NCBI GenBank assembly: GCA_015680905.1
Contig: CM027378.1
Location: 15,543,001 to 15,607,000, forward strand
DNA length: 64,000 bases
DNA from: Coptis chinensis
Taxonomy: Eukaryota > Streptophyta > Magnoliopsida > Ranunculales > Ranunculaceae
Direction of reading: 5' to 3'
The notes under the pieces: generated by a model
Databases searched by the model: none
The model's input: the letters and a program-made list of their open reading frames with translations, nothing else
Told to the model about the DNA's origin: nothing
Part shown: positions 1 through 44,334 of the stretch, one piece after another
Numbering within the stretch: position 1 is the first letter of the stretch
Layout of the letters: each line of letters begins with the position of its first letter
Program-made: the position numbers and the translations under genes

Positions 1-1624
1 ATGCTAAAATATGGCCTGTTGTCCTTTCTGCCACAGCTTGGGCTCTTTGGTATACACACACAGTTGTTATTAAAAGAGACAAGAGGCTTCAGTAGATAAG
101 AATACATATATTTGTCTCTTTACCAACATTGTTAGGTCCGAGTTTTCAAGCCTCAGTTTTTGGGTAGGATAAGATAGTCCTACTAGGGTAATAAGCTGTA
201 TTTGACTATTGAAAGCCCTAGGTCTCTCTCAACTAGGAAGTAAGAGATACATCTTCAGTCACTGACTTGCTTAACAGCAACCCCCCCTTCCTAAAAATAA
301 GAGGAAGAAGAATAAGAAAAAAGAGTAATATGATATTTCTCTTTTTATCTAATGTCCTTTCATCATTTCAGAAAAGTGGGAGTAAACAACTAAAAAGCCT
401 CGAACACATTCATTCACTATAAAAGAACATTAGCACTACAATATATAAATGCTTTTGGAATAAGACGATATGAATATATGATGGGGTGATTACAAACTTT
501 ATTCCACAAGCCAATGGTCCGTCTAAGAAAAGAAACTTTTTAGGAAACAACCACAGAGAATTTTGCATTCCTGAGGCAAGAACTTACTCCACTCGTAAAT
601 TAAACAAACACAAAGGTCATCAACAACCCAACTCCATCACCTCCCAAACCACCAACCATAGACATTTATTCAATCAGATATCGCCCAAAACAATTAGCAA
701 CAGAGAGTCCACAACTTATGAATATATTCAATAACATAAGTGCTCAAATGCTGGATACACAAACAAGATATGTTAAGAGAAATAACCAACAACCAAAAAC
801 GCAAGATTTTCATGTAATATTGAGCGAGAAAGAAGTATGAGACCTAGACTAGCACACAAGCATCCATTTATTAAGTTAAACAAGACCCACCCATTACCCT
901 TCATTTCTCTCACCACCATTTACAAGCCAAGCATGCCCTCCACGTAGCCTCAAAATTACTACTAAATTTTCCTTCCATCAACTTCACATCCATACAAGAA
1001 AAACCAGTGACAAAGGAGATGGAATCTACAGTTTCTCATTTCTCACAGGCTCACGGCTAACTTGGGAATTATCTCTCAAAGGAGATGGAATCAACAAGCA
1101 CTATTTGTCTCTATAAGACTAAGTTAGACACTACATTATATAAAGTAAGTACCATTCAACCATTACCATTAGTGTCATAATATATATTGATATGTTGAAA
1201 AAGAGAATTCAAGGAAAGATGTTAAATAAATCAACTTATAAGTCAGATATATTATAAATTAATCAACTAATGAGCAATCTCAGATCATACGGTGAGAAAA
1301 GAGAGGAACTGTAGAAGTAGAAACGCTATGCTCGAGAGGCAATCAAGTGGCAGACCTCATCGACGATAAACCTTAGGGATTCTAGGCTTGAAAGCAACAC
1401 GAACAGAGAATTGCTAAAATATTATGGATCAAATACAGCTTAAGAGCTATCCCTTTCAAACCTGGTATGTAGTGATTGATCCTAAGTTGCATTGACATAT
1501 ACAACACACGGATATGAAGTGTACACTGCGAAATATAAAAAAAAATGAGGTACGACACGGATTATTTTTAAAATATGGCGTGTCCAAACTTGAGTGCTTC
1601 GATTCACATATGAAAAATCCATAC
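1..1624. other. AT-rich stretch with no recognised gene
   Basis: I see no convincing coding exon on either strand. Short open frames here have biased, low-complexity translations. If the zinc-finger gene beginning at 1917 (minus) is intact, this stretch would be part of its second intron. I looked on the minus strand for the C2H2 exon expected next in that family and did not find it. Confidence 0.5.
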
Positions 1625-1917
1625 CGGCCTTCTTCAACATCCATGTATTGGAGCTGACACTTGTCTTCATCAGTCAAATCTAACGCAACCTGAGACGAAT
1701 ACTAATAATAATAAAAATAGAAAACTAAATTTTGATATTTAAAATATAAAGAATTAATAATGAGTACCTGTTTAGCAAGAAGTTCTCTCTCAATATTGCC
1801 AGATGAAAAGAAAGGGGAATCTGGAAGGAATCTCCTGAAAATTGGATTCCAAAACGGAAACCTTCCTCCTAATACTTTATTATTATTAGTATCTGTCTCT
1901 GTCGTTGGAACCATCAT
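1625..1917 (-). CDS. First two exons of a probable ZNF511-like C2H2 zinc-finger protein (partial)
   Basis: Exon 1 (1917-1768) starts at tandem ATGs and encodes 50 residues including GGRFPFWNPIFRRF and NIERELLAKQ. It ends in CAG followed by a GT donor. Exon 2 (1689-1625) follows a TCAG acceptor in phase and encodes VALDLTDEDKCQLQYMDVEEG before another GT donor. From memory, plant ZNF511-type zinc-finger proteins share this N-terminus (FPFWNP, then NIERELLAKQVALD) ahead of their C2H2 fingers. The fingers are not visible, so either the next intron is longer than 1.6 kb and the gene leaves the window at its left edge, or the copy is truncated. A T-rich run at about 1938-1960 lies just upstream of the start. 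No frame break is seen in the two exons. The exon structure is well supported; the family name is moderately sure. Confidence 0.5.
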
Positions 1918-4790
1918 CTTCTTTCTTTCTTCAAATGCTTTTTTTTTTTTTTTTTTTTTAAGAAGAAAAAGAGTTCGTCGACAAATGGTTCACGAAAAAT
2001 CTTACAAAATGCCGTGGAATATTGTGAGATTTCGTGTTTTATGCCGTGACGGGATATTAGAGGTTGACAGTTTTACAGCTTTTGCTCTACGGTCATCAAC
2101 AATACGTGCGCATCACAGTGGTAAAAGAGACGGAAGTATTTCCTTTATACGTGCCTTGAGATCTTATATTTGTAGCAGAAAACCCACATCCAAAACATTA
2201 TTTAGGTTTCTAAGGGCATCTCCAACGGATAGGGCTGGTCATGGAGTCCTGTTCGTGAGTAACTCGGGCTCGGCATGTTGAAGGCTCGACTGAAACTCGC
2301 TCATTCAATAATACTAGCCATTTGGCCCGGCCCATGGCCGGACTTGTTACATAGATAGCTAATGACTCGTAAGCCTAAAGTCCACTTGAATAAATATGTA
2401 TATTGACAGCTAATGATTCATTGCATATTTTTTGTTTGAAGGATTTATGTTTTTCTAATTTTTTTTAAAGATTTTGACGAAGTGTTTTATTTATATTTTT
2501 AGGTTATTATTGTCCTAAATAACAATTCTTATCACTCACCTATATAATACAACGCAACAATTAAGGAATAAGACACGTACTTTGAAAAATAAAAAATTAC
2601 AATAGAGCAAGGATGCATTTAGTTATTACTCTTTCTTTAATCTCAAATTGCCTGTGTTATGTTTAAATTGGTGTCATCTTGGTTGAGAATAGTGTTCTAT
2701 ATTGAAATTTTAATAGTATCATACTTGATTAAAATCATGATTGATTAATCTTTGACAATGCGTCTCAGTAGCAAGAGAAAAAATCAGTATAATTGATTCG
2801 TTACAGTTTTACTTGGGAAAATCATACACATTATATTACATTTGAGATATATTTCTACAAACAATAAATGATCTACAATTACCAAAATAGATAGTGGATG
2901 TACATAATATTATTCAGTTCAACCAAATTTCTACAATCCTAATGTACTGAAACACTTCCCTACAAAGTGTTCAAGCATGGATTAAGATGGCTCATTCCTT
3001 ATTTTTAAAATTTCCTTAAACATCATGCCCGCATACCTTTTCTTATTAACAACGACTTCAATGATCTATGCTTCTCAAGTGGCGTAGTATCATTATTCCT
3101 TTCAAACTATTTGGTCGCCATTGCTGCGCACGCCTATATACAGTGAAACTTGCTAGCATTTCTTTTATCCCTTTTATAATCAAACTACAGTATATATTCA
3201 CAATTAGAATAAACATAATAAGCAATGAGATAAATGCGTGAAAGAAAAATGTAAAAAGAAATATCATGTTGGAATAAATCAAAATAACAATCATATTACT
3301 TGAAGATCGTACAACTGTGCGTCTACAACGGTATTATTTACATTAGTTCTCAAACACATGTTGGTTTCAAACAAACTTGAGAAAATATTAAAACACGATG
3401 ATTTGTGTCTCAAAGGGCCTCACCAATATACAGTTTGTGGTAAACTTCTCGGCATTCTCGCTATTTGATATAATGCACTCAAGTTTCTTGTTGTGCTTAG
3501 TGTTTGTCTCCACCATAACCACGAACTACACTTTCAAATAGAAATGAAACTTCACAATATTTCTTCATCTCCACAGCAATACAATGAAACGTACAAATTT
3601 AGAACACCCAGTCACCGAAGGCGAGTGTCAAAATACAAAAGCTAAAGCAATCAAGTTATGAATGTGAAACTTTAATAGTAAAAAAACACTCTGAGTTTGA
3701 ATTTTTCTTTAACTATCTATCTATCTATAAGATGAGTTGATCTCCATATACTATTATCAAGAAATCAAGTTCTACATAAGAATAGACATGTTATATAGCA
3801 TCGTCCATTGGTCTTCATCTATTACCTCCCTTTACATGAGTCAAGATCAGTGTGCACGTTCATATACATTCATTCCGCTAAGACTAAGACAACCAACCAT
3901 TCACATATTAAATTTCAAGTAACATATAACAGCAAGCCAGTAACAATGTAGTAATTTGAAAAAAAATATTATAATAATCCATAATGCATAATGAAAGCAA
4001 GAATGCATACAGTTCAGCCATCTCAAACTTTATATATATATATATATATCTTCGGAACCTAGCAATGCAAAGATCAAATTTTTACAAAAACATTATATGT
4101 AGTGAATTGAGTACTCGTGGAGAAAAAAAAATAGTCATGAAGAAGAAGGCAAAAAAAGGCATAACATTATAGAGGCATGAAAAGCATGAATACTTGATGA
4201 AAAAGAGCTGAAGCTTGCCAGAAAAATCAGACCACAAATAAATATACACCTTTTGAACTTTTGAGAATTTGAATTTTCCTAAGAGAGTTTGAACAAACAG
4301 AAACTTTATGTTTGAACTTTGAAGATAACCAAATTTTTGGTATAAAAATGAGTTGTTGGAAAGTTATAGACCAATAAGAATGGAGCCCTAACGAAGATGG
4401 ACACTTGTCGAACGTTGCATTGCAATGTTTCAACTGAAAGGTGCACATAGTTTTGTGCAATGAGTTATATATTGTGATAGTAGTTACTGTAGTTCATAAA
4501 GAAAAACAAACGTACTAAACCCCAACATAGTATAAAAAGACATATCTAAAAGCAACCCTATATATATATCACTCTTCAACTATGGTTGTTAAATTCATTG
4601 CCCTAAAAATCAATATGCAACCTTGCTCCACACTTTCTCAATCTTCCCCTTGAAGTGAATTGAATCTTCCTACATCACCAAAATGATATACACAATATGC
4701 TATCGATTCTCTATAAAACCAAAATGCTATACACAATATGCTATCGATTCATATTAGTAAGAGATTCACACCATGCAACTATTAGAAACT
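1918..4790. other. Intergenic stretch, repeat ends only
   Basis: No gene recognised. At 2213-2232 there is a sequence resembling a MITE terminus (GGGCATCTCCAACGG), followed directly by a second repeat beginning AGGGCTGGTCAT. The reverse complement of that second motif recurs at about 9914-9926. A short (ATCT)n run lies near 3713-3728 and a TA run near 4032-4050. The rest is AT-rich and featureless to my reading. Confidence 0.4.
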
Positions 4791-4795
4791 ATGAA

Positions 4796-5712
4796 TATGC
4801 AATTATATACCTAAAGTACATGACTTTTCTGAAAAATTTCGATAGAGTCTCCTATGTATTTTCAACATTTCATAAATATAAAACTTCTCATAACCTAAAA
4901 ATTTAAAACAATATACTTCTCATTGATTAACCCAGCTACTTAACCGTCTCGACGAATGCCAAAGCAGTTAAATAACTGGTTTAAAAAATGAGATCAACAT
5001 TAGGACTTAGTACAACAAAGAACTTGAATGCCTCGACTAATGCCAGATCATCCAAACACCTCGTACAAATATACTTCTCATTAATTAACCCAGCTACTTA
5101 ACCGTTTCAACGAATGCCAGAACAGTTAAATAATTGGTTTAAAAAATGAGATCAACATTAGGACTCGACTAATGTCAGATCATCCTCGCACCTCGTTTAA
5201 AGCCATTACCGAAAACACATTAAATATATACTTTCGAGTCCAACGCCCCAAAACTCGAACAATTATGTACCTAAAGTATGTGACTTTTCTGAAAAATTTC
5301 GACAGAGTCTCCTCTGTATTTTTGACATTTCATAAATATAAAACCTGTCATAACCTGAAATTTTAAAACAATATACTTCTCATTGATTAACCCAGCTACT
5401 TAACTGTCTCGACGAATGCCAGAACAGTTTAAAAAATGAGATCACTATAACATTAGGACTTAGTACAGCAAATAACTTGAATGTCTCGACTAATGCCATA
5501 TCATCCACGCACCTCGTCCAAAACCATTACCGAAAACACATTAAATATATACTTTCGAGTCCAACGCCCCAAAACTCGAACAATTATATACCTAAAGTAC
5601 GTGACTTTTCTGAAAAATTTCGACAGAGTCTCCTCTGTATTTTCGACATTTCATAAATATAAAACCTGTCATAACCTGAAAATTTAAAACAATATACTTC
5701 TCATTGATTAAC
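4796..5712. repeat. Tandem repeat, about 310-bp unit, three uneven copies
   Basis: The block is built of diverged copies. Landmarks recur: TGACTTTTCTGAAAAATTTC at 4821, 5281 and 5602; AACCCAGCTACTTAAC at about 4929, 5089 and 5390; and a CTCGACTAATG motif several times. The last two full units are about 320 bp apart and differ at few positions; the first is interrupted and partly duplicated internally. Short open frames in each unit translate to related peptides (YLKYVTFLKNFDRVSSVF) simply because the DNA is repeated. I see no sign that this is a gene. It may be a small satellite or minisatellite seed. Confidence 0.8.
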
Positions 5713-7800
5713 ATACCCACTACACATTAAAGCATCTTTGTGGTAGCAAGGACTTCTATTTGCTGGGGAAGACACCATAATACCTCTCACTTAATTTATT
5801 GGAAGTCTAATGGTTAGAACCCAATATCTCAGAGTTGTAATGGGTTGAGCACAATGCCTAAGTTTATTGTGTTTGGAGTGAATGCTTAACAAATATAAGT
5901 TTAATTAATCAATATAAATTTAGAATTTAGTCATTTATTTTCATAGTTTCGTTAATATCGATCAATTCTTCTAACTTAGTGACATATCAAACCAAAAGGA
6001 AAAAAAACAATGAAAGTAAAAAAGAAGAAGGAAAAGAAGTAATACAACACCTATAAAAAAGATAAAACTACAGCATTCATTACCATGAGATATCAAGAGA
6101 GACATAAAACTGCAATATAAAATTGATAATTAAAACAAAAAATATGATAGATTAGAAAGAAAACCAAAATTTTATTTAATGAAGTACTTGAGAATTGAAG
6201 ATATCAATAGATGTTTGCTTCAAAAGCCTCTGTTAGTCGTCCTCTGCTTCAATTTTTCTCAACCATTTTGGCACTCGTTCATTATTCATACCAGGTAGAA
6301 TTGGCACTTGCGGATGTCACTCCCATTGGCACTAATGTAATCATTGAATGCCCTGTAGTGCAAGCTGCAAGCATCAATCCGCAATCTAGATTCCAGAAGC
6401 ACTTCCCATGGTGGGTGCAGTAGTGGCAGCAGCCACAATCATAGTCTCAGTTTGAATGGTGTGAGGACCCATTATATCATAGATAAATTGATTGTTCAAT
6501 ACCTAGTGAGTTTTATGCTAAAAAGAGTACAAATGTCAGCAAGAAGCAAGAAAGAAAACATGTATAGATAGGATAAATAGACTATTGCTTACCGCGATAC
6601 AACAATACAAATATGCTTTATTTATCACAGTATCAGATAGTATGTTGACGTGTAGATTCTTATTAGTACACGTGATCTTATATTCTCCCATTCTGCATAA
6701 AGGAAGCAAAACAAACTGGCCACTTATATTTTTTGTAGAATGAAGGAGATAAATTTGGTGCCAACTTATACTAAGAACCCATGAAAAGAGATCTGGTAAT
6801 CAGTATATGACACGTTTCTATTTCTGAAACTAAAATTTCATGCAAAATAATATACATAAACAAATAACAATACAATCTCACCATCTCAGGCAAGAGAGTA
6901 TGAGTTACCCTTCTCGGAGGGGCATGTCAGTTAGGAATATCGAGGACAACACCAGTTTCGTGTAAGTTATGGTGGTTAAACATGAGAAAATAGTTAGCAT
7001 AAAAGGCTTCGAATGGGGAATATAAATTATTCTGAAAAATATTTGCTACTATGATATATAAATATTATATTGATTGCTCATTCAAATTTCCATTCATAAC
7101 ATATTAGAGTAGATATACCTGAGCACTTTTTTCTTGTGTCCAAATTAAATCTCAATTTCTTAGAATATATTGTCATAGCTTCTAAAGCTATGTCTTTGGG
7201 TTCCGATATAAAGCCAAACTCTACATTCTCCAAATAACAAAAAAGAAAAATGTTTGTTCAGGGAATGATCTACATTGCATAATAATGGATTGGTAGAGCA
7301 GGAGAATGAAACTTCTTTTTTTTTAAAAAAATTTGGGGTTAGTTTTTCATTTGTTCGGCCGTCTCACACGAAATGGCCAAATGACTAAGAAAACTCCTCA
7401 AATTTGACAATTCGAGATCACCATACCTTTTTAATATGAACATGAAGTCATGAACACCCATTTTAGAAGAACGAAAAAGAGAGATAGTACAACTTAATAG
7501 TGAATCAAAAAACACTATAACCCATTTGATTCCTACTTTCCACTTCCAACTAATACTATAAGATACATGGCGTACATACTATACGAAGAAAAATAAGAAA
7601 ACAATGGAAGTATGGACTATTCTATTTTGGTAAATAATAACAGTCTAAGCTACTTTTCAGCCGTGGGCATCCTATAGACAAATTAATTATAGGCTCATGT
7701 ACGGCTAAATAAGTTCATACCCAATATACCTAAGTACTCAAATTCATACCTAATCTATCTAATAGCCATCTATTTCTTTAATTGAAAGCAAAAAGAACAC
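5713..7800. other. Intergenic stretch without recognised gene
   Basis: A 70-codon open frame at 6211-6423 (plus) was examined on both strands and matched nothing I know. The rest is AT-rich with poly(A) and poly(T) runs. Nothing else is supportable. Confidence 0.4.
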
Positions 7801-7801
7801 T

Positions 7802-8370
7802 TACTTTTTTACACCATGGTTAGAATCTTCTACCAAAAGATCCCTTATCTTTTCATTATAAACTTCCAACATACTTACAGACAAATCATATTTCATAGTA
7901 CAACTTCGCTCCTCCGATATTCGAAACAGTTCCTCTAACGTTCTATAGTGAACTCCGCTGCTCTCCGAAGTTCCTTCCATTGTGAAAGTCTTACCTGTCC
8001 CTGTCTGCCCATAGGCAATGATACAAACATTAAACCCATCCAAGACAGAAGTCATGACGGGTGATGTCTGAGCAAAGACAGCCTCTGCAGGCATTCCAAA
8101 AATAAGAAATCAGTACAGAGACAACACATAAATAATTAAGGAAACTAAATTTGACAACATTAAAATTACCTTGATCATCCTGAGGTCTGAACACATGATC
8201 GAACTTAAACAGCTTCCTAGAAGAACCCCCACATAAAATATGTAGTTCATTATCTTTAAACAAATTAAATTCCACGACAGACGAACAACCACTTGAAACT
8301 TCACCCTGATTTAATGGCCTACATCTGCAGAAAACCCTTATATTTCCTTTAAGCTTAATCACTTGGTAAT
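7802..8370 (-). pseudogene. Kinesin-14 motor-domain fragment (two exons)
   Basis: Kinesin-14s are minus-end-directed microtubule motors. The upstream exon (about 8370-8172) encodes IKLKGNIRVFCRCRPLNQGE and FKFDHVFRPQDDQ, which is the neck and first beta-strands of the motor, and ends at a GT donor. The next exon (about 8081-7804, after CTGCAG) encodes EAVFAQTSPVMTSVLDGFNV, the P-loop AYGQTGTGKTFTMEG and SMLEVYNEKIRDLL, then meets a donor-like GTAAG. The switch I, switch II and microtubule-binding parts of the motor, as well as stalk and tail, were not found nearby. The fragment has no internal stop in these exons, but a quarter to a third of a motor domain cannot work alone. It lies just downstream of a bHLH fragment on the same strand. 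Family identity is firm; calling it a pseudogene fragment is an inference from what is missing. Confidence 0.85.
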
Positions 8371-8656
8371 TTAGCCATTTGAGATTAATAAATAAAGAAA
8401 ATAAAAAGTTGTTTGAGTGTAAGTGTGAAACTCACCAAGATGTTAAGCTTCCCATTGAACACTGATGAGGTCTCTTCCATTAATTTCTCTCTTTGGGCTC
8501 GCACCGAGACATCGCAAACTGATCGACATTATGATCTCCTTAATGTTTCCTTGCAACTGAACTGTGTATCAATAGACATAAAGGAAAGAGATAATAATGA
8601 AAAATACTATCTGTAGAATAAAGTACTTAACTTTTGTTACATCAACAACGTTTTAC

Positions 8657-10880: not shown

Positions 10881-11098
10881 TTATCTGCATGTCCAATAGA
10901 TCAAGTGCACGTTGAGTAAATTATTTCGTCGGAACCATATATAATTTGTTCTGTCACTCTTATTTTGAAATAAACTTCTATTGACATTGGGTTCCTTCTT
11001 TTGTTGCAGTTCCAAGTGGAATGCTACTAAAAGTAAGATATCGTATGAACTTATTACCCTGAGTTTTGAAAAGCTAGAGCAAATTCATCTTAACCAAA

Positions 11099-11453
11099 AT
11101 GTGGACTCTTGACCAGGATTTTGCTAGGCGAAAAGGTGATGGAGGGATTATATCAGTGTGGGGACTACAACGACTGTTGGAGTATGTTAAATTGAAATAC
11201 AAAAATCCTACAGCTGTAATTTATGAGAATGGTACCACTACTCACCCCCACCTCACAATCCAACCATTTTTGGGCCTGGTAAAGTCTATATATAGGTGAA
11301 TTGCAATTTCGTTCTCATTGATTGCACCCACCTTTATGATAACAGGATTTCCAATGACTGCTGATGACTCATCCAATCCTGCAAGTCGCAATGACACTAG
11401 AAGAATCAAGTATTTGCAGAGCGCTCTCAAAAATTTATATTCATCTGTAAGGT
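11099..11453 (+). pseudogene. Glycoside hydrolase family 1 (beta-glucosidase) fragment, two exons
   Basis: GH1 enzymes hydrolyse beta-glucosides by a retaining mechanism. The first exon (ending at 11231) encodes VWGLQRLLEYVKLKYKNPTA followed by VIYENG, the family signature carrying the catalytic nucleophile Glu, and stops at a GT donor after the first base of the Gly codon. The second exon (11346-11453, after ACAG) resumes in phase with GFPMTADDSS, then DDSSNPASRNDTRRIKYLQ and SALKNLYSSVR, again ending at a GT donor in the phase expected for the family (the YLQSYL...IRNG junction). The N-terminal barrel with the acid/base NEP motif and the C-terminal WSLLD exon are not found. About one seventh of a normal enzyme remains, so it is a gene fragment even though these exons are open. 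Confidence 0.85.
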
Positions 11454-11783
11454 ATATGTTTTGCCCTTTACTCATCACCAGTTGGTCTTTCAGTTGGATG
11501 CTCCGTATTTAAGATGATATGAGGGCAGGGCGTCTGCCTGTTTTGGTACGATCCATGTGACACACATCTTATTGTATAGAAAAAACTGAATGTATGTGTT
11601 CTCGACCTTGGACTTATAACCAAATATGTATGTGATGTTTTTATATAGTATCGAGTATGTAAGTCCCTGCTTCACAAATGTGGATGCGCTCATTGTTTAA
11701 TTATATGTAACTATTTGGCGTTACATGTTTCGATTAAGATAATGTTAACCCAGCCTTCTATTTTTCAAATTGCACTACAACAG

Positions 11784-12060
11784 AGGGGCCCTTTTGCAAC
11801 GCACCCTTTTGCCACGCCAAAAAATTGTTGCTAAAACACATCTATTGCAACGCCATCTAGCGTTGCTACATCTTTCTCGTTCCATAAGAGCCCACTTTAC
11901 TTGTATTCACATATTGTGACGCCTAGACCTGGTGGCAACCTGCTTGTTTTATGATATTTTAGAAACAATAATAAATATTTTTTGAGGGATTTTAACATTG
12001 GCAACGCAGATGGCGCTACTATTGTATGCGGAAATTATTTGCAACGCCATATTCATCACA
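11784..12060. repeat. 5' subterminal motif array of CACTA element 1
   Basis: At least seven copies of a motif close to TTGCNACGCC, in both orientations, sit in this interval (TTTGCAACGC, TTGCCACGCC, ATTGCAACGCCATCT, AGCGTTGC, GTGACGCC, GGCAACGCAGA, TTGCAACGCCAT). Subterminal arrays of this type bind the accessory transposition protein in En/Spm-type elements. Confidence 0.8.
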
Positions 12061-13695
12061 ATAAGTTTTTTATCGATTTAATATTTAACTTTCTCAATTT
12101 TTGGTATACATTTGTTCTGCGGTGAGGTAGAAGTCACAATTGGGCTTTTCACAGCCTACATTTTTTCGCGGGCTTCTTTTTGTTTTGGCTCCTACAAAAT
12201 AACAAAATAGAAACGAAATATTTAGCAAAATAAAAATAAAAATAAAAACCCTAAAAACACTTCTTCTCTCTCCCTCCCCCCTTACTCTCTTCAATATAAA
12301 AATTGTTATAGCTAGGTGGCTTCAATCTTCCACCCTCGAATTAAGGTTAGTCTTCTTCCACCGAAAAAGATAATTGAGATAAGCTTTCCGGATTTCTCAC
12401 GATCTCTTTTTTCCTCATATTGCATATTAAAGTTCCAAGCTTTGAATTAGGTTTTAGGCTGATGGATTGGGGTTTTGATTGTAAGGTAATCGCCCACCAC
12501 TAGAATAGTGTCGATTTTGAGTTTGGGTTTGTTGAAATTTGTGTTTTTTTTTTTATAAAAAATTCTGTGATTTATTGTAGTGAATGGGTTCTCTTGTGTT
12601 TGAATGATTTATGGACATGGGATTCAATTTTACTAATTAATCTTTTGTTTGACATCAGTTTAGACTTGGAACTTTGTCTGCTATATGTTTTAGGGTCATG
12701 AGTGCTCTACTTAGAGAACTAATCTTCTTTCTCAGATATTATGCATGCAGTCCGTGTAGGTGAATACAGGTTTCAACCCAGGTAATTTTCAAAAGCTTTC
12801 AAGGTGGTTCATTATCTCTTCGATGAATTTCTCATGATAGATCTTTGCAAGTTCTTGCTTGTATGGGATTGTTAAATTGTTAAGGTAGAATGAACATTGG
12901 GTTGTTTGACAAGTAATGGTATTGTTTAATTAGAATAAATAGTTTTCTTTCGTCTGGGTATATTTTGTTTTGAATTGGTAATAATGATGAAGTTGTGCAA
13001 TCAATAGATTTTTGTTATTAGCTAATATGGCATGGTTTTCACCTTTCTATAATTGGGATTGGGATGTTGACCGGCTTTTGGATCAAAGATGGAAACTTGA
13101 AATTTATTTGGAATTAATTGAATGATGAATATCAAATGTTATATATTCATAATCTGAGTGCTACTGTGATGATGTTGGTTGTCTTGATTGGTAATGCAAT
13201 AATTTGATGGTATATGTTAATTGACCTAATTGCTAGTATTGCAGAAAATGTGATTTTGAAACGATGGATATCACTCATATTGTTCTTTGAATGATGCAGT
13301 TTGTTTCTTTTTCATAAGATGTATACCTAGATCCATCAAATGTTATAAGACCTCTTTAGCTTAAGTTATTTATTGTGGTTCTATATTTTGTTTTTAAGGT
13401 GCTGATTATCTAAGTGCGTCTCTCGAGCATACGATCGAGGTAGGCCAAGTTTATTTATTTATTTTCTACACTTTTTATTCATTTTGCTTGTTTATTTGGT
13501 TGGGATTTATTTTTTTTTTGTTAGTGAGGCAAAGAAAAAATCAGGTTGGGTACATTGTGTTAAAGCTTGGGTAGTTGGGTGTCAGGTTTTTGATGCATGT
13601 TTACAACCTAGTGTTTACTATAGCACATTTAATAATTAACTTGTCTTTTTCTTTTTTGACCTTGCATCTGATGTATGAATGGATTTGCTCTCTAG
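12061..13695. other. CACTA 1 interior, no recognised coding sequence
   Basis: CT-rich sequence at 12250-12300, then T-rich and intron-like sequence. Some of it may be the leader or introns of captured genes. I could not tie any part to a known protein. Confidence 0.4.
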
Positions 13696-13842
13696 ACGGG
13701 AAGTGGGAAGACATATACAATGCTCGGTGAGATTGACGAGTTGGAAGTAAAGCCCAGTCTAGACTGTGGGATGACACCACGCATATTTGAATTCTTAATG
13801 CAGAAGATATGTTGCTCCCTCAAAGCACATTCACCTTCTATG
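13696..13842 (+). pseudogene. Captured kinesin-12 motor-domain exon
   Basis: After the acceptor CTCTAG the exon reads TGSGKTYTMLGEIDELEVKP, then SLDCGMTPRIFEFL, and ends at a GT donor. TGSGKT is the P-loop. The following MLGEIDELEVKPS...GMTPRIFEFLF segment is, as I remember it, specific to plant phragmoplast-associated kinesin-12s (PAKRP1/POK type). The last 15 or so residues (MQKICCSLKAHSPSM) no longer match. No other kinesin-12 exon is found in the element. It is an isolated exon, on the same strand as the CCD7 exons that follow. Confidence 0.8.
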
Positions 13843-14030
13843 GTATGTTTTTGTATTTGTTATTAGTAATAATTTACATGTTATCTCAGTGCTGTATACA
13901 TGTGTATTGTTCATCACATCTAACCTTGTGTCCGATATGCCATTTCAACTTTTCCTCGAGTTGTTTCATTGTATAATCGATTTTGTCATAAACTAACCAA
14001 GAATAACTTGCATTTTTTTTGTTGTTGTAG

Positions 14031-16224
14031 AGTTTGATTCAAATTTCAAGTTAATGAATAAGCGGACATATAACATCTCGTAACACATGATGGTTCATGA
14101 TTGGGCCTTCACGGACACGCACTATATTTTATTTGGGAATCGTATTAAGCTCGATATTCCCGGGTGAGTTAAACTTTAGATATGCAACATTATCACTGTT
14201 CCTAACACAAGTTTTGATTTACGTAAGTGCCTAAACTCAAATAGATCATCATACATGAATTAGCTTTCTAGCATTGTGCTAAAATTTGGTTCCTCGATAA
14301 GCTATTCATGCAAATTACAATTTATATTTGTTCTGAACGTGAAAGTTGCTTTTAGTTTGGAATCAAAATTTCACAATATTATGTAAACACTGATTTAGAA
14401 GGACCATTGTAACATTATATATGCTGCATTTGCATAGAAGTGATTAATCTAGTCTAGCATTTGAATTGCAGGGTCAATGCTTGCATTAAGTGGGATATCT
14501 CCGATGATATCTGCGTTGTCTATGGACGATAGCAAATCTACATCTCCTATTTACTTGCTTCCTCGATTTCCAAATGAGATTGTTGAAGATCGAGATTGGA
14601 GGGTACCGATTGAGGCTCCAAAATAGATGTGGCTATTACATGTGGGTAATGCCTTCGAAAGCGGAGGGATGTGAAAGGGAATCTAGAAATTCAAGTGCAT
14701 CTTTGCTGCTTGCTCCTACCAATGGTTCAATTTTTGCAAAATGTTTGGTAATTTCTTTTACTATCACACTATTTCTCTGTTTTTTATCACCACAGATATG
14801 ATCCTTTTTTTTTTTTCTTATTTAGTGAATATTAACTTTTACTACAAAGGGTAATTTGTAAATCGCTGCATGTAACATAAAGCAAGGATTTTAATTTTTT
14901 CATGATTTTGTAGGATATGACCGGAGAAGTGGTACATTGGACCCTTCTTTTATGAATGCAAGAGAAGGTGAAGAGGATTCACTGCCTCATCTAGTGGAGG
15001 TACTCTTTGTGTTCCCCGTGTATGTTTTTGTGATTAAACTGTGTGTATGTTCCCTGTGGACTCACCGCCTCATCTTCTCTGTTCACCATGTTTATCGTTA
15101 TCACCGAAAAAAATGTTTGTCATTTAAAACTTCTAATAGGATCACCCAACAAACCATATCTTCACCACATGGAATCACTCCAATATTTTCTACCTCAAAC
15201 AAATAAGATGTGTACTTTTCTTTAGAGCCTTCTAATAATACAGAAGGTAATTTTCTTTTAATTTTCAAAAGAACACGATTACACTAGAAATTAGAAACAT
15301 TTGAACCGAGTTACGTGGTTTCTTATGTTAGTAGAATATGTAGTAATCTGTTTAATTGAATGATCTTTTGAGCGATTAAGAAAAAGATCCCACAATTCAG
15401 GTTGTAAAGTTCGACTAAATCTTATGACAATGTAGGTGTCTATGAACTTTGACAAAGAAGGAAATTGTAAATATTGTTCCGTTGAGCCCTTGAACCTTTG
15501 GACTACACCTTCTCGACTTTCCCCGTGATCAACCCAATGGTCTCAAGTAGAAAAAACAAGTACATTTATGCTTGCCACATCTTCCTCGTTCCTCGCCAAA
15601 CCTTGCCACATTTTCCTTTTGATATCAAGCAAAGCTCAATGTGGACAAAGAAGTCGGTTTCGACTTGGTCATTGGAAATCGAAGATTTATCGGTGAGCCC
15701 ATCTTCATTTCTAAAGGTGACAAAGAGGATGACGGATACCTCCTTGTAGTAGAGGTAAGAATGAACACATCGTCGTAGGTACTTACTCATGCTAAATGAC
15801 AAAGAAGGCTGAATTTGGGGAACCGATCTTCCTTATAGAACAATAGAAATTCCCTATTTATCCCCCTCGTTGCCATGTTATGTTGGGTGCATTTTGTATT
15901 TCAACATGTCCTTTGGGTTTCAAGGTAGTTACATATTATGGCAACACAGCTAACCACATTAAAGAAAAAGAGTATATGGTAACTTTTGTCTCAGACTCCT
16001 TAATCACAAAAGTTGTGGAACTATCTACTCTGTCTCTGTTTTAACGGATGTTAATCTATGTTTTTGATTTTTCAAGATGCGCTTCAAGACAAAGATGTTA
16101 CCTTGTGATTTTAGATCCAAGACGGATAGGAGAAGTCGATCTTGCAGTCATAGCAAGGCTTGAAGTTCCCAAAAACTTAAATTTTCCTCTTGCTTTTCAT
16201 GGTTTTGGGGCTGGAGAGAATTAG
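14031..16224 (+). pseudogene. CCD7: Captured carotenoid cleavage dioxygenase 7 (CCD7/MAX3) fragment, five exons
   Basis: CCD7 cleaves 9-cis-beta-carotene in plastids in strigolactone synthesis. Five exons survive in order: 14031-14163 (MVHDWAFTDTHYILFGNRIK, LDIPG), 14472-14747 (GSMLALSGISPMISALSMDD, TSPIYLLPRFPN, RDWRVPIEAPK, LLHVGNAFES, YQWFNF), 14914-14999 (SGTLDPSFMNAREGEEDSLP, HLVE), 15436-15754 (KNKYIYAC, RQTLPHFPFD, KSVSTWSL, then GEPIF and EDDGYLLVVE in another frame) and 16077-16224 (RCYLVILDPRRIGEVDLAVI, ARLEVPKNLNFPLAFHGF, stop). The His of HDW is a probable iron ligand. Exon ends have GT and AG sites and introns are kept, so this was copied as DNA. There is a stop just after RVPIEAPK (family: Gln) and frame changes in the second and fourth exons. 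The N-terminal half of the enzyme is missing. It is non-functional as an enzyme; a transcript could still resemble the real gene. Confidence 0.85.
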
Positions 16225-16864
16225 TTGTATTGTTTAAGTATTTGATTGCATTATTTTTACTTCGTTAAACAGGTTTGTCGATAATTCATTTTATACATAA
16301 TGACCCAATCGTCACGCATTTTCAAGAGGTGAGTGGAAGCAAAGCAATTATCAAATACAAATTATGTGTTATATATTGAAATTGCCATTGAAGCGCTAAA
16401 GCTTATGATCGTGCGCGACTTTCAATTCAAGATGCATGGAAGCAAATCATTTCTCGATGCCTCTTCAAGACAGAAAATTTGAATATCTGTGTCACCAGTT
16501 CACCACCATTGAGTCATGACAGAAAAACATCGATATACTCGGGGAGAGTACCATGCGAACTCAAGTTGAGAAACAAATTGAACAAAAAGAGCTGGAATGT
16601 GTCAAGAGTCTTGAAGTTGTTCAACCTGTTTTCTGGATGACTGTTTGAGAAGATTTTGGATGGCAAGGGCTATTTATTATCGGCACTATATGCTCTAGTT
16701 CAAGTTCTGTTATTTTCTGTTTGTTTACACATGGGGTGGCCTAAGTAAGATGTTTTGGGTGTACATGTGGAGTTAATAATGAACAAATAAAAATGCATTT
16801 CTTTTGCCATTTCATTGTTGTTTTACTGCCAAATAAAGTGTGCTTTTCTGGAATTTATATCATT
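16225..16864. other. CACTA 1 interior beyond the CCD7 fragment
   Basis: No long frame. A stretch near 16555-16660 could be read as RTQVEKQIEQKELECVKSLE, a possible short helical exon, but I do not recognise it. It may be a third captured fragment or chance. Confidence 0.3.
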
Positions 16865-17370
16865 CGCAACAATTTTGGTGTAGCTAAAAGATTTGATTCT
16901 ACCGTAACGTAGACACTTTTTGCCACACTTGGTGTGTCGCTAAATTTATGGATGTCTGTTGCCACGCCAAATGTATAGCTAAAAATTCAAACTTTCCGCA
17001 ACGGAAATAGTGTAGCAAAAGGTTGCCTTTTGCGATGCCTAGTTGTGCAGCTAAAGGTATCACTTTTGCAACGCCATCCTAGTTGTTACAAGCTCTCTTT
17101 TGCGACGCCAAGCGCTGCAAATAGTTTGAAATAAATTTGTAATTAATTTAATTTTCATAAATGAAGTAGCAACGGAATTAGTGTATTAGCAGCGCCCATA
17201 GGCGTCGCAACAAACTAGGAACATTTGCCACGCCACTTTTGGCGTTGCATTTGAGTATTTGAGACGCACTTTTTAGCCACGCCTTTGCAACGCCATCTGG
17301 TGCGTTGCGACAGATCTTTTGCCATGCTCAAAGGCACCTTTAGCGATGGGGTATGGCGCTGCTAAAACCA
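16865..17370. repeat. 3' subterminal motif array of CACTA element 1
   Basis: A dense array of the same short motif as at the 5' end: TTTGCCACACTTGG, GTTGCCACGCC, TTTGCGATGCC, TTTTGCAACGCCATC, TTTTGCGACGCC, GGCGTCGCAAC, TTTGCCACGCC, GGCGTTGC, TTTGCAACGCCATC and others, in both orientations. Many copies have drifted, mostly by C/T and G/A changes. Confidence 0.85.
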
Positions 17371-17388
17371 TGCTCTGTTGTAGTGTTG

Positions 17389-35289: not shown

Positions 35290-36655
35290 TGATAAGGAAT
35301 TTTACAAATAATTAGGACAAGCGTGCAACAAGTTTAGCCAAGAAGTCCTTTCTGAATAGCAAATCCTATTCTTCTAAAAACAAACTCGTTAGAACCGGTA
35401 TCATAACATAACGCTATCGTCTATTACTTTCTGAAGTCTCTTGAGAAGCTCAACAGACTATTGTTCCAAGAAACCAAAAGTATCGAAACTAAACGGAATG
35501 AAACAATGCTGGTTAGCCATGCAAGCTTCCTTATGCTTCTCCATCTTCCCTGTCGCTGCTCTCTTAGTTGCTTCTCCCACCTCAAAGACTCCATTCCCAA
35601 GCCCTACCAACGGAGAGGCTCCAGTTACATCAACACATGCATGTCTCCCCTCAGACCAGCTGTATATCAATACATCCGCAGGCCGAAGTGTAGATCTCTC
35701 CTCATTCAGATCAGTGAGAAAATTCATAGGAGCCTCCTTCTTCACTTGTACCCCAGCCCTCCAAAATGCATCACATAAAATATCTCTGACAGGATCATGT
35801 CGGTATTTGAAACCAGGAAAATGTCTACAATGTGCTGCATGGTCCCCGAAAGCATCTAGTCTACTCTTTTTGCAAACAGGGCATAGACCACCATCAGAGT
35901 ACAAAGGAATCATGAGACGGTACCGGAGAATAGAACGATACTCCACCGACGACATACGCTGTCCAAGGCCCTCCATCGGAATAGCAAGTAGAAAATCCTT
36001 TGCGTGTTCTGACTGCAAACATCCAATGACTGCTTTCTGACGAGTAGATAACACAAACTCCCTCTCAAGACCAGCAACAATCTTACTAGAGAACGCTTCC
36101 GCCAAAATTTTTTGTGGTTTTGAGGGGACGGTAGCATTCCCAGCCATAGAACTGAGGTCAAAATTGGGTATATTGTTGCTAGCAGTGCATGAGATTCTAC
36201 CTGAGACATAATGGCATAACACTGCTAGCAACATCAAGAATCTCATCCAAAGGCACTGGCCCACAACTCCTAAGAATGTGGTTCTAAAGCTCAGAAGTCT
36301 GATAACGAGAGGCGACAAAAGCAAAAGTAGAGACATCAGTGGCACAATAAATACCTAACCCACCAAGACATAATGGGAGTGTTGATAAACACCACTGCAA
36401 ATGACCGAAGTTAGGACCATCAGAAACCACAATACCCTGGAGAACACTGCGGAGATGCCGATTAAAAGTCTTAGCTGCCTCTCTAAATTGGGATGGTGGA
36501 CAAGTACGAATCGCAAATACCAACTTAGAGAGCCCAACACAAGCACGTAAGAGAGCTAACTCACACTGTGGATCGTCTAATATAGCTAAATGGTCCATCA
36601 AAGTCGCAACCTTTTCAACATGCTTGCGAGCAAGGCCCATGACAAAGGATGGATT
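35290..36655 (-). pseudogene. Non-LTR element: C-terminal part with CCHC knuckle and restriction-like endonuclease
   Basis: Reading from 36655: NPSFVMGLARKHVEKVATLM, DPQCELALLRACVGLSKLVF, LGGLGIYCATDVSTFAFVAS, then in a second frame LSTRQKAVIGCLQSEHAKDF, LGQRMSSVEYRSILRYRLMI. The knuckle is CPVCKKSRLDAFGDHAAHC (C-x2-C-x10-H-x3-C). After FKYRHDPVRDILCDAFWRAG comes RPADVLIYSW and GRHACVDVTGASPLVG, which matches the R/K-PD...D pattern of R2-type restriction-like endonucleases (here PAD then VDVT). It ends FIPFSFDTFGFLEQ, a stop, then VELLKRLQKVIDDSV. At least one frame change (near 36300) and one stop (after FLEQ) are present. Confidence 0.8.
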
Positions 36656-36689
36656 CACTACAATAGAAAAGACATTTAAAATCACTCCA

Positions 36690-37020
36690 TAAGTGATGTA
36701 AAAAATATACGATGTCACTTTTGCAAGTGATGTAACTGGTGGCGACGTGAAAAGTTAGGGTTTTCAACATCACTTTTTAAATAATGTCTACAAGTGATGT
36801 TACTTCATATCACTTTTTAATTGATGTCCACAAGTGATGTTATAACTTTGCATCACTTTTTAATCGATGTCCACAAGTGATGTTATAACGTTTAACATCA
36901 CTTTTTAAGTGAAATCAATAAGGTCAATTAACATTACTTAAGAAGTGATGTTTCATTTAGATTCCAAATTACTTGTAAAGTGATGTGAAATAACTCTATA
37001 AATCACTTTAAAAGTGATGT
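36690..37020. repeat. Left subterminal array of CACTA element 2
   Basis: About a dozen copies of AAGTGATGT or its reverse ACATCACTT, often as pairs separated by short spacers (CAAGTGATGTTACTTC, ATCACTTTTTAA). The motif differs completely from that of CACTA element 1, so the two elements belong to different families and need different binding proteins. Confidence 0.85.
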
Positions 37021-37406
37021 CCCATTTATCAAAATAATAAACAATAAAAATAAAAAATAAATAAAATTGCCAATGTCATCCCAATATAATACTAATTTCC
37101 TGGTCATTTATCATCAAATAAAGATGAAACGTATCTTAAAATCACATTCATCACACAAATATCATCTCCAATTCAAAATATTACACTATATACAAAAAAT
37201 TATAACGAGCCAACATAAACTAACAAAATCTAATTTGCAGTACCGAAATGAGTCAAAGAGAACCACAATCACCCAACTAAGAACCTATCACAGCCTGGCT
37301 TGATGCAATCAATTTAATCCAAGAACCTATCATAGCCTAACAAATCACTCTGTTTTCTTTTTTCTGCAGTATGAAACATTGTAATAGAAAATCAATGCAG
37401 ACTTGT

Positions 37407-37901
37407 ACTCATGCAAGAATAGTTTGACAATGTCTGGATCTTCAAGAGAAGCAAGATAGGCTATACAAGGAACAAGACCAGGCAGTCAGATAATGTACTT
37501 GATAGCATAACAAGTTTTCCTACATCCATCTTACACAAACAAACCCTTGGAGACTCACCAAGAGAAATATTCTTCAAAGTACGTCTGGAGATATTAGCAT
37601 GGTCAAAGATGTAAAGCTCAATACTCCTATTATTTTCAACCTAGAACATGTGATGCGTTAAATGAAACGAGGAAGACCAAATGAATAGAGAATAAGAACA
37701 ATCAAAGAAAACACTTTTTGATTTAACATATATTTATATTTGAAGATGTCATACTGTGCTAAGAAATTCAGCTTTTATTTCCGAAGCGAGAAGTTTTCTG
37801 ATGAAAGAGCTGACATCATGAACAACATCGAGATCTGCAACCTCCATCATATCCATGATCTCCCCATCTCTAGGAAGAGTAAGCACCTTTGCAATGAATT
37901 C
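37407..37901 (-). pseudogene. Captured M1 aminopeptidase, C-terminal exons
   Basis: Three exons with GT-AG sites: 37901-37755 ([50 protein letters not shown]), 37640-37559 (VENNRSIELYIFDHANISRR, TLKNISLG) and 37460 to about 37407 (AYLASLEDPDIVKLFLHEYK). These match the helical C-terminal (ERAP1_C-like) domain of plant puromycin-sensitive/aminopeptidase N-type enzymes (family memory: [35 protein letters not shown]). The block is separated from the upstream aminopeptidase exons by the cotransporter fragment. No stop is seen within these three exons. Confidence 0.82.
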
Positions 37902-39443
37902 CTAAAAATTATCAAGTAGTAGTTAGAACTAATGAGTAACATTATTTGGTTCTGACATCTACACTATATGATAAGCTGGGTCTTCCTAATAATACCCTCC
38001 CAATATCGAGTAGGCAATTTAAGATCTCCTTATTTACTTAATTTAGAAACATTTCCCTCACTAAATTTAGAATAAGTCCCTTTTTTAATATATATCGTTG
38101 TTTTTCGGAGACTTTGTCTCATTAGCTACTTACTTGTTCCCATAAATGATGCATCCGTGTTTTTCCGACGCAAACTTATTCCAAATTTTGTAAGACTAAC
38201 AAAGATGTACTTTGTATTGATAAGAAATCAATATGGATCTACCTACATTTGAATGTAGCATAAAGGCCTTCGAGCTTTAACCCTTGAAAACAAAGTACTG
38301 CAAGTAGAAAGAAGCAACATATCCCTAGTGAACCAAAGAAGAAAAGATAGAGGAGCTCTGCTGAGGCTCTTTTGAATCTACAGAGACATACTCAATTGAG
38401 TGAAACGTTTATTAAATGGAACAAAAAGTGTTTGTTGGCAAAGAAAAGAAAGAACCTTATAAATGAGATTGCAGAAGACGGATGCCATAACATCTTATAA
38501 ATAATGGATGCAAAGGTGCATCCCGATATGATGCAACAGACGACTAGCTGCAAGAGAGGGGCGAACCCGGTCTTTGTCCGTCGTCGAGCAGTCCCCGCGT
38601 CCAGCTTGGCTATATGTCAAAGGTAGTAATACATAAATTATATTTTGGGCAAAAAGAGGAGCTGCAAGGAAAAATATCGATCCATAGTTTGCCCATATAT
38701 GACAAGAATTTATAACTTGGAAGAAGGTTTTAATTAATGGAATGAGGAAAATATGGACCTGACCAAACAATGTCGACACTCCGTTGTTATGTTCCAAGGT
38801 TAAAATAGGATATTAAAAATACAACTTTTTGTTAAATTATAATTCAGTAGCAAAGAAACTGATGAGCATCAAAAAGATACTCTGGTAAGGGAGCATGGTT
38901 AAAGAATATAAGGAGTATAGTAAGAATCTTGCAAATATGGAACTGAAAGGGCAGTTTACCTCAAGTGATGGAACTGATTTCGACTACATACATGATACAC
39001 CGTAAAAAATATGTTATAAGAAACAAAAACCTTTTTCGACCACCCGACTCACGTTTTTTTTTTCAACTAACTGTCTTAGATCTTTGCAAACAGTTTCAAC
39101 GTGGTTTAGAAGATCAAATGACTGGTATCCATTTCAAACAAGATTTAGGCCATTGTGGAGCTATGCAGGATTGAGCATAATTGAGAGATTGTCAATGTGA
39201 GAAGTAAACCATATTATTAATAATTGATGAGCCTTTCTCTTCTTTTGATGAATGCTAATTGTATGCTTATAAGTTTTTTTTTCCAATCATATTCTTAATA
39301 TTTCTCACTCAATCAAAGGGGGGAAAACACACACACGCAGGGCAGCTAGGTGAAATTCAGTAAGGGATCCTGAATCCCAAGAAATGAATGTAAGAGACAC
39401 AATCCATCTAAAGTCAATAATAAATTTGAAAAGGAATGAGTAC
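37902..39443. other. CACTA 2 interior, no recognised exon
   Basis: A GC-richer patch at 38510-38620 lies in a 100-codon minus-strand frame that I do not recognise. The rest looks intronic. Confidence 0.35.
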
Positions 39444-40611
39444 CTGTCTTTCAAGAGCTTTTTGTGGTTGGTTGAGCTCCAAATAACAACCGCAGAGATT
39501 AAATATAAAAACAGTTTGTCGTAAGAGAAGCGGCCGGGGGTTCCAAATTCGTATCGAATGTTCAGTATCTTTCAACGAGGACAAGCGATTTGAACCAGCC
39601 ATAATTCCAATAACAGCAGGGAAAAAAAGACTCACCAATGCACTGGAATGGTGAACAATTTTATTAGAAAACTTAGAAGTCATCTAGAATAGGAGGTTAG
39701 TTTGCTTCTGAGAGAATCTAGCAAGATTCAACAGTTGCACAAAAACATATATGGAATGAACATTTATAAAAACTCAGTGGCCACTTGGAACAAGATTATA
39801 AAGCAACAGAAAGGTAGTTTTTCCCTGGATTGAACTTGGGTAGAAGATCTATTTCTCTTCGAGATAAACGAGTGAAAAAAATGAAAAGAAGAAAGAAAAA
39901 AAATGTTTGACACCCAGGTTTATGAGTTGATTCCCTTGGTTGTACGTATAATGAATTTATGAATCTGAAGAAACAAGTGAAATCAGCCATCACAAAATCA
40001 ACTTTACCACTAAAGACCCACTTCAATACTAGATACTACATGGTAATGTCAATGTGTGTAGACATAAAAAGCATATCCAAAAGTGTGAAGAAGGAAGCTC
40101 TGAATCTATCAAACAATAGTGGCACTAATTAAAGGGAGCCCATAAGATCCCAAATAAGTCACATATTCACCATAACAAAACAGAATAGGTATACCTACAC
40201 GAAAACCATTAAGCATTTGTGTTGCTTACTTAAAATTCCAGTAAATTGATCCATTAGGATCAGGTACCCCTGCATTGTTGGTGTGTTGAAATTCTGAACT
40301 CAAATTGTCTTTAAATGTCGTTGAGCTCAACCCCGTGATTCCAGCTGTGCAAAGATTGGAACCATTTATCAGTAAATTCTAGCGCATAAACTAAAAGAAA
40401 AGATAACTTGAGCAATAATAACTTATTCAAAAAAAAAAAAGGTGGACAAGCAATAATCAATAAAATGATAAAAGGCATATTTCGTGTATCACATACCTTT
40501 ATTGCACCATTAGTAGCAATAGCACTTAACGATAATGTAGTCAAGAAAGTGCACATGCCACAAAAGGAGACTAACAATAATGAGTCCAGTATGCTAGCCA
40601 TACCAACTATC
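39444..40611 (-). pseudogene. Captured cation-chloride cotransporter (CCC) fragment
   Basis: Plant CCC proteins co-transport Cl- with Na+/K+ at endomembranes. Exon 40611-40497 reads IVGMASILDSLLLVSFCGMC, TFLTTLSLSAIATNGAIK, a pair of membrane helices ending in the family's SAIATNGA motif. A second exon ending at 40230 reads FKDNLSSEFQHTNNAGVPDP, NGSIYWNF. A third ending at 39444 reads ALVSLFFPAVIGIMAGSNRL, SSLKDTEHSI and then loses frame, the expected GTLAATLTT...LLFGA continuing in other frames. FFPAVTGIMAGSNRSASLKDTQ is a hallmark of the SLC12/CCC family. Intermediate exons (after SAIATNGA) are missing, so the copy has internal losses as well as frame changes. Confidence 0.85.
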
Positions 40612-41446
40612 CTGAAAAGGGAAGAGGGTAGTATTTTCCCATTAACACTACTAGAGAGTACGTTTAAAAAATGAAAAAACAACAACAACAAAAGCAAAAA
40701 GATCGTATCTAAGACAGAACCTCAGTTGTTTGTTCTCCTCACCATTCTTGCCTTGATCCCTTCTAAATGACGTCAGCCACAAGAGTTCTCACTTTACAAC
40801 CCTTTATATTGTATGTCATACCACCTATTTTGTTCTACTTCTTCAAATCATTTTTAATACCTTATCCAAGGTTAAATTCCTTTCCCGTCATTGTCTCTTT
40901 CGTAGCATACATACTAATCTTTCTTCAAACAGGTGAATCATTCGACAGGATTAGTTGTATCATATCCACAAGAAGGTTCCTATACAATGATCAGAATCCT
41001 AACTGACCATATATTACAACCCTTAACATTCTTTCTTAATTTCTGAAAATAAAATTGGACACACCAACTGATCTACTAACTTATACATGCAAAGTCTACC
41101 ATTATGAACTAATACGGATAATAATTAATAGCATAGGGTAAATGTTATTTACCAAGAAAATCGGATAAAATGGATGATTCCCATTATATTTTGCAAGCAT
41201 GGTACAAATAGACCCATCAAAGTCCCCAATTTAATTCCAATTGGCTGCAAGATAAATCATATTTCATCCATTAAAAACACATGGAAAAGATTTTAAAGTC
41301 AGCAAAAGTGCAAAACTACAATATATTTTATATTTTGACTGGTAATCCCTAATTACATCAGGGTACCTCTTGGGTAACGCCTTCCCACCTAAACATAAGA
41401 TTGAATTCTGACACAATTTCTCATCGATAAACAATCAGAACTGACC

Positions 41447-42196: not shown

Positions 42197-42421
42197 CTAT
42201 TAAGCACAAATACAAATGAAGAATCAAATAATGCAAACTGTAATTATCAAACTAATTCCTAAAAATTATCAAGTACATTGTGTGAGTTCGGTTTCTTCTA
42301 AAATACTTAGCTCAAATCAATACACTAAACTAAAAGCTATGATATTCTCTTTTAAGAAAGCTAATGGTGGCGTGTAGTGACGCCGACATTATTCATCAAT
42401 GATACAAGAAGGAAAACTCAC

Positions 42422-44330: not shown

Positions 44331-44334
44331 AGTG

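Follow-up and report, generated by a model that had tools for sequence, protein, structure and literature searches.

Excerpts of two papers describe the Pack-CACTA transposons of Arabidopsis as non-autonomous CACTA elements that carry pieces of host genes and explain them by a model, cited from Catoni et al. 2019, in which two neighboring elements form a hybrid (PMC13317346, PMC8903248). In soybean, the 5.7-kb CACTA element Tgm-Express1 carries fragments of five host genes, exons and introns included; it lies within a gene, and spliced RNA contains its exons (PMC1947982). Here, we report a CACTA element of Coptis chinensis that carries parts of the strigolactone gene CCD7 and of a KIN-12 kinesin gene. 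It occupies positions 11773 to 17385 of a 64,000-nucleotide stretch (C2:15543001-15607000, all of which is termed the window) and is, with good probability, a non-autonomous Pack-CACTA that arose as CACTA copies fused in series. Pack-MULEs and gene-carrying Helitrons are likewise mobile, multicopy carriers of host gene fragments, but differ in their ends, target site duplications (TSDs), and transposition machinery.

The element is a new Pack-CACTA member with an unusually complete capture record. Its host coding fragments, from CCD7 and KIN-12, are present in several copies, and the source genes of both were found. Compared with the Arabidopsis Pack-CACTA elements, the source genes, relatives with the older cargo, and relatives of both ends occur here in one genome, and the cargo was added in several steps. 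The cargo is also unlike that of Tgm-Express1, consisting of CCD7 and KIN-12, with a cyclin-D-like piece in one relative, and the present element is known from DNA alone. No CACTA capture of CCD7 was found in the literature searched, as judged by title or start of the abstract, and a literature search with a CCD7 peptide word matched no paper.

Structure of the element

The 5,613-bp element is bounded by perfect 12-bp terminal inverted repeats (TIRs), of which CACTACAACAGA opens it at 11773 and the exact inverse closes it at 17385. The TIRs begin with CACTA, as in the CACTA superfamily, and TTG directly abuts the element on either side as a 3-bp TSD, 3 bp being the TSD length of CACTA elements. 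Matches to TTGCNACGCC with at most 1 mismatch numbered 17 in the window versus 3.99 expected, a count reached in 0 of 100 shuffles; 14 of them lie inside the element, clustered at both its ends as subterminal repeats. The clean CACTA element proposed in the initial annotation is thus upheld in its TIRs, TSD, and subterminal arrays. Although 5-nt TSDs are given for CACTA elements of rice and maize in an excerpt of PMC8903248, the TSDs here are 3 bp, and no 5-nt duplication was seen at these elements. No second copy appeared when the element was compared with the window by BLAST. Its whole length is accounted for by the ends, the KIN-12 and CCD7 pieces, and a left body of 1.9 kb, as follows.

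11770-11772, unstranded: left TSD TTG, in the flanking letters
11773-11784, plus strand: 5' TIR, CACTACAACAGA
11773-13654, plus strand: left element body (element positions 1-1882), common, wholly or partly, to KIN-12-only elements
11794-12048, unstranded: 5' subterminal array holding 5 of the element's 14 TTGCNACGCC matches
13651-13796, plus strand: captured KIN-12 kinesin piece, source gene L027
13696-13796, plus strand: part of the KIN-12 P-loop exon, TGSGKTYTMLGEI
13797-16829, plus strand: captured CCD7 segment, corresponding to 4224-7242 of parent L010
13797-13842, plus strand: 3' part of CCD7 exon 2, 46 bp
14031-14163, plus strand: CCD7 exon 3
14472-14747, plus strand: CCD7 exon 4
14914-14999, plus strand: CCD7 exon 5
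15436-15754, plus strand: CCD7 exon 6
16076-16224, plus strand: CCD7 exon 7 to the natural stop TAG, start approximate, acceptor altered at a CAG site relative to the parent
16225-16829, plus strand: CCD7 3' flank
16830-17385, plus strand: element 3' end, nearest to an abundant group (98.7% to L064 and L065) rather than to KIN-12-only elements
16959-17294, unstranded: 3' subterminal array holding the other 9 TTGCNACGCC matches
17374-17385, minus strand: 3' TIR
17386-17388, unstranded: right TSD TTG, in the flanking letters

CCD7 cargo, parental gene, and copies

When the CCD7 frame pieces were joined, with X at each break, they matched Pfam RPE65 of the carotenoid oxygenase family (E 1.4e-33). 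Their best PDB match was an apocarotenoid-15,15'-oxygenase, and VP14 (3npe), present in the PDB set, was unmatched at E values up to 10. In tblastn searches, Arabidopsis CCD7 gave collinear matches in the element, CCD8 gave none there, and an NCED-like sequence gave a single weak match (E 0.003). By these alignments, CCD7 is a closer relative of the cargo than either CCD8 or NCED.

In the genome searched (935,630,033 bases), window positions 13797 to 16829 (element positions 2025-5057) aligned end to end, at 95.9%, with a gene on C6 (L010) whose seven exons align with Arabidopsis CCD7 residues 12-618. On this alignment, L010 is the parental CCD7 gene, and because a CCD7 gene of the same genome aligns over the whole captured segment, the CCD7 identity of the cargo is confirmed. 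The parental gene extends past the captured segment on both breakpoint sides, and the 999 nt that correspond to the captured coding part read through to the stop without interruption. The capture comprises 46 bp of exon 2, exons 3 to 7 with the natural stop, and the 3' flank, in sense relative to the element and without CCD7's own 5' part; the kinesin piece directly precedes it. The initial annotation had recognized captured CCD7 exons with introns, and exons 3 to 7 (14031-16224) hold against the parental gene; its extent was too narrow, as the full capture, 13797 to 16829, includes the exon 2 part and the 3' flank. The stretch at 16330 to 16700, considered as a third captured gene, was rejected: it aligns with the parental CCD7 3' flank, and two pieces of it had no Pfam match.

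A query with CCD7 exon 3 gave eight places in the genome (8/8 candidates scored), namely the parent and seven element copies, including the window. A distal query (16100-16800) gave 13 rows, with 13/13 candidates scored; one row is the parent, two belong to a single C9 locus, and the remaining ten are further loci. The parent and further copies, for which the initial annotation had proposed a genome search, were both found, with CCD7-derived sequence at 11 loci besides the parent, the window included; these counts come from a DNA-level search, with highly divergent CCD7 paralogues beyond its reach. Four loci (C3:118.7M, C2:13.1M, C9:70.6M, and C4:11.0M) were in the distal result and absent from the exon 3 result, and of these C2:13.1M alone was read, at both ends (L056, L063). 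The distal piece at C4:103.56M presumably belongs to the same interrupted copy as the C4:103.55M piece, ~16 kb away.

Matching TSDs flank three full-length CCD7 copies, namely the window element (TTG), L011 (CAT), and L014 (GTG), and also L056/L063 (CTT), which has the distal CCD7 part. Among the fetched stretches, L009 contains the 3' end only, and L012 and L015 the 5' end only. The element is, as the initial annotation had supposed, mobile and multicopy, with TSDs that differ among full-length copies, and the further copies rule out a single inert capture. The left junction is identical in 7/7 copies reaching it and the right junction in 5/5, with a small difference beside it in L014. The six long copies each differ from the parent by 8 to 24 substitutions in 1,935 clean columns. 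As just 4 of the 1,935 columns are changed relative to the parent in all six copies, the element spread soon after capture. Pairwise divergence is 0.45 to 1.26% (clean columns), which, at a rate of 7e-9 substitutions per site and generation, points very roughly to 0.3 to 0.9 million generations.

KIN-12 cargo and order of capture

A Pfam Kinesin match from 13696 onward (E 2.5e-5) fell below the curated cut-off, and a KIN-12 motor query aligned at the kinesin piece. A query with this piece gave 10 places in the genome (10/10 scored): seven are the CCD7 copies, one is a KIN-12 gene (L027), and two are elements (L028 and L029). The L027 gene has no element ends, and its motor exons, the part inspected, read well between introns; it confirms both the kinesin identity and the source of the captured piece. 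The elements L028 and L029 carry a longer KIN-12 stretch and no CCD7. Another KIN-12-only element, L040/L062, was located by its 5' end and is without this exon piece. TSDs of the KIN-12-only elements are AAA for L028, CAC for L040/L062, and TTA/TTA for L039/L029, across ~19 kb (C8:90357729-90376850) read in part; this span presumably holds nested insertions. The KIN-12 match before CCD7 measures 383 bp in L009 versus 146 bp in the window type.

In contexts outside the affected sites, KIN-12 substitutions relative to the source gene amount to 54/1,770 in L028 and 29/1,770 in L029 (285 positions deleted), and CCD7 substitutions relative to the parent to 18-37 of 2,396-2,439 in the six long copies (22 in the window). 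Because KIN-12-only elements exist and the KIN-12 cargo carries more substitutions, KIN-12 was captured before CCD7. Joint uptake of the two is contradicted by the KIN-12-only elements.

One relative carries further cargo. L013 (C5) matches the right part of the window element from element position 1802 and, at 430-4005 together with L016, holds an open cyclin reading frame of 191 amino acids on the minus strand, left of the common part (Cyclin_N 4.5e-26, Cyclin_C 1.4e-11; best PDB matches cyclin D). The left stretches of L013 also resemble what we take to be a plant membrane protein, on a sub-threshold Pfam match only.

Discordant ends and formation of the element

Relatives of the two ends were compared among the best 40 of 285 candidates for the 5' end and the best 40 of 404, all at least 95%, for the 3' end, so that the end-family counts are lower bounds; divergences were counted in columns outside CG/CHG contexts. 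The 5' end of the window element lies close to those of KIN-12-only elements, with 8/258 differences to L038 (the 5' end of L028), 5/258 to L039, and 4/255 to L040 (1.6-3.1%). Differences numbered 9-10 of 250-253 to L044, L045, and L048, 29-35 of ~250 (11.6-13.7%) to L054-L061, and 46/232 to L053. The 3' end is nearest to L064 and L065 (2/198 and 3/196 differences, 1.0-1.5%), versus 15/198 and 13/198 (6.6-7.6%) to the KIN-12-only elements L028 and L029. The 5' end of L013 is of the L054-L061 type (1-8 of 248 differences). Judged by these comparisons, the two ends appear to derive from different element groups, the 5' end from one like the KIN-12-only elements and the 3' end from another, abundant group, and they therefore fit the neighbor-fusion model as given in the excerpts of PMC8903248 and PMC13317346.

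An older CACTA element with a KIN-12 piece would have come to sit at exon 2 of CCD7, with a copy from a different and abundant CACTA group to the right of the gene. Transposase acting in trans would then have recognized the outermost ends as those of a single element. Near-blunt joins would have cost the inner ends and most of the KIN-12 cargo, and the CCD7 stretch that begins in exon 2 and runs into the 3' flank would have become cargo. The new CCD7 element spread soon afterwards, and one lineage would have gained a different left 5' end with cyclin-D-like and membrane-protein-like pieces.

Sequence damage at CAG/CTG sites

As assembled, the CCD7 frame in the window has 2 stops and 11 counted frameshifts, three of them on exon joins of the gene model. 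This damage was absent from the initial annotation, as were the kinesin cargo and serial capture. Across eight aligned sequences, including the parent, deviating copy-sites amounted to 175/544 at CAG/CTG versus 62/1,557 at CAT/ATG. The 175 deviations comprise 66 indels, 24 multiple changes, 27 transversions, 30 T>C/A>G, and 28 single C>T/G>A, and the same sites are altered in different ways in different copies. Relative to the parent, 49/85 CAG/CTG sites are changed in the window (CAT/ATG, 5/147), 47-65 of 84-85 in the other five long copies, and 8/16 in L012. Per base, the change rate over seven copies is 616/2,981 near CHG, 79/638 near CG, and 271/15,250 elsewhere.

The signature is found in the wider family as well. 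Relative to the KIN-12 gene, CAG/CTG sites are changed at 35/77 in L028 (CAT/ATG, 8/103) and at 57/77 in L029 (24/103, deletions included). In the 5' regions of nine elements, the values are 39/153 for CAG/CTG versus 9/329 for CAT/ATG, with GAC/GTC (15/108) and CAC/GTG (26/271) raised too. In a leave-one-out comparison, the copies deviate at 7-19 of 28-32 CAG/CTG sites and the parent at 0/24, while at 142-143 CAT/ATG sites the copies deviate at 2-8 and the parent at 3.

Basecalling error of long reads at methylated CHG is the likeliest cause of this signature, and the frame damage in the window is probably, for the most part, sequencing error at such sites. If this reading is right, the signature is suggestive of CHG methylation of the copies and not of the parental gene, unless short-read polishing repaired the parent alone.

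Alternative explanations

The parental locus shows no insertion today, so that the fusion step is an inference, and several observations weigh against it. The 9.9 kb of L010 contain no element sequence beyond the captured segment and no breakpoint footprint, and two CACTA copies flanking CCD7 were found at none of the loci seen. The donors L064 and L065 were read at their 3' ends alone, their 5' ends being unread, and the 3' end of the KIN-12-only L062 is 55-57% to both groups, which leaves the group bounds untidy. L013/L016 has both ends with mismatched TSDs (TTT versus GCT), and recombination after capture that exchanged ends could also give discordant ends. CACTA elements are mobilized by a TnpA/TnpD-type transposase; no transposase match was obtained in ten frame pieces of the element, a scan of part of the frames, and no genome-wide search was made. 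A copying route, by which CCD7 entered the KIN-12 element through template switching in excision-gap repair, would suit the open, footprint-free parent and the joins (the left blunt, the right with ~1 nt in common), but copying alone leaves a 3' end of a different group than the 5' end unexplained, and we regard it as a less likely competitor. Neighbor fusion with transposase acting in trans accordingly stays the preferred, conditional account of how the joins arose.

The cargo raises a similar choice, as the captured CCD7 copies might be truly decayed pseudogenes with real stops and frameshifts. Counted lesions are 8-17 in the six element copies tested as assembled versus 3 in the parent, the latter taken as exon-join artifacts of the gene model. 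In an alignment with the reference CCD7 protein, where 21.8% of columns are near a CG/CNG motif and lesion placement is loose, lesions near such motifs were 8/13 in the window, 6/13 in L009, 4/13 in L013, 5/13 in L015, and 0/3 in the parent, and in L011 (1/8) and L014 (4/17) they overlap the motifs no more than by chance. Coding indels away from CG/CHG occur in five of the six copies (L009, 5/19; L011, 2/5; L013, 2/15; L014, 6/16; L015, 3/13), and in L014 one clean codon reads as a stop. Against true decay, 11/11 indels and 34/37 substitutions in the captured coding part of the window fall no more than 3 nt from a CG/CHG context, such contexts covering 34.5% of positions; the CAG/CTG changes are mostly not C>T, and the copies vary differently at identical sites. 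Nanopore consensus errors at 5-methylcytosine in CCAGG/CCTGG are documented (PMC6591954). Genuine decay as the main cause is, on balance, unlikely. Clean-codon changes (0-1 synonymous and 0-2 non-synonymous per copy in six copies) are too few to detect selection on the cargo.

Other features of the window

A second CACTA-like element lies at 36656 to 44334, from CACTACAATAGA to TTTGTTGTAGTG, with subterminal AAGTGATGT arrays; the letters on its two sides, ATT and TTA, form no matching TSD. It overlaps the end of a minus-strand reverse-transcriptase open reading frame (ORF) (RVT_1, E 2.9e-14, 44277-44825), and ORFs at 35461 to 36718, without Pfam matches, may continue the region of the RVT_1 ORF and second CACTA-like element. 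Kinesin motor exons on the minus strand at 7804 to 8431 (Pfam Kinesin, 1.4e-32) belong to a different kinesin, presumably KIN-14-like by motif, and are not the source of the captured piece. A weak glycosyl hydrolase family 1 fragment (E 0.0034, below cut-off) lies at 11078 to 11296, ~480 bp left of the element. A retroelement ORF at 50665 to 51543 has a weak aspartyl protease match (E 0.00066, below cut-off), and the stretch at 57162 to 57775 is 77.9% similar to that region.

Implications for strigolactone biology and gene capture

The CCD7 cargo is most likely a passenger, as it lacks CCD7's own 5' part and resides in copies that look CHG-methylated, and it is probably silent. Small-RNA cross-talk between the copies and parental CCD7 is possible on the sequence shared: 753/912 parental captured-exon 21-mers (exon bounds approximate) have an exact match in one or more of the seven copies, CCD7 sequence lies at 11 loci besides the parent, and maize captures are cited as reservoirs of small interfering RNA in an excerpt of PMC13317346. 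That such RNAs lower parental CCD7 expression, a possibility raised in the initial annotation, and alter strigolactone output is nevertheless improbable, as the parent has no CHG error signature and hence no sign that CHG methylation reached it. Also doubtful is a neighboring promoter that drives the cargo into chimeric spliced RNA. This would parallel the precedent of Tgm-Express1 (PMC1947982), and inspection shows 9/10 of the capture's splice sites intact in the window; by the same inspection, however, the exon that joins kinesin to CCD7 does not stay in frame, and the copies are likely CHG-methylated. Most speculative is a cargo-swapping CACTA lineage that repeatedly takes up growth genes (KIN-12, CCD7, and cyclin D), its CCD7 copies acting in trans as a small-RNA dimmer of strigolactone synthesis. 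If true, strigolactone dimming would be dispersed and variable, differing among individuals by insertion number.

Stops and frameshifts in transposon cargo may represent errors at methylated CHG, and pseudogene calls in such an assembly need checking; CAG/CTG differences may in turn serve as a crude methylation record in an assembly. A multicopy CCD7 homologue is natural material for testing trans-silencing of a hormone gene. Gene acquisition by Pack elements has been argued from few cases, and here its steps are readable in one genome, which holds the parent gene, relatives with the older cargo, relatives of both ends, and later descendants.

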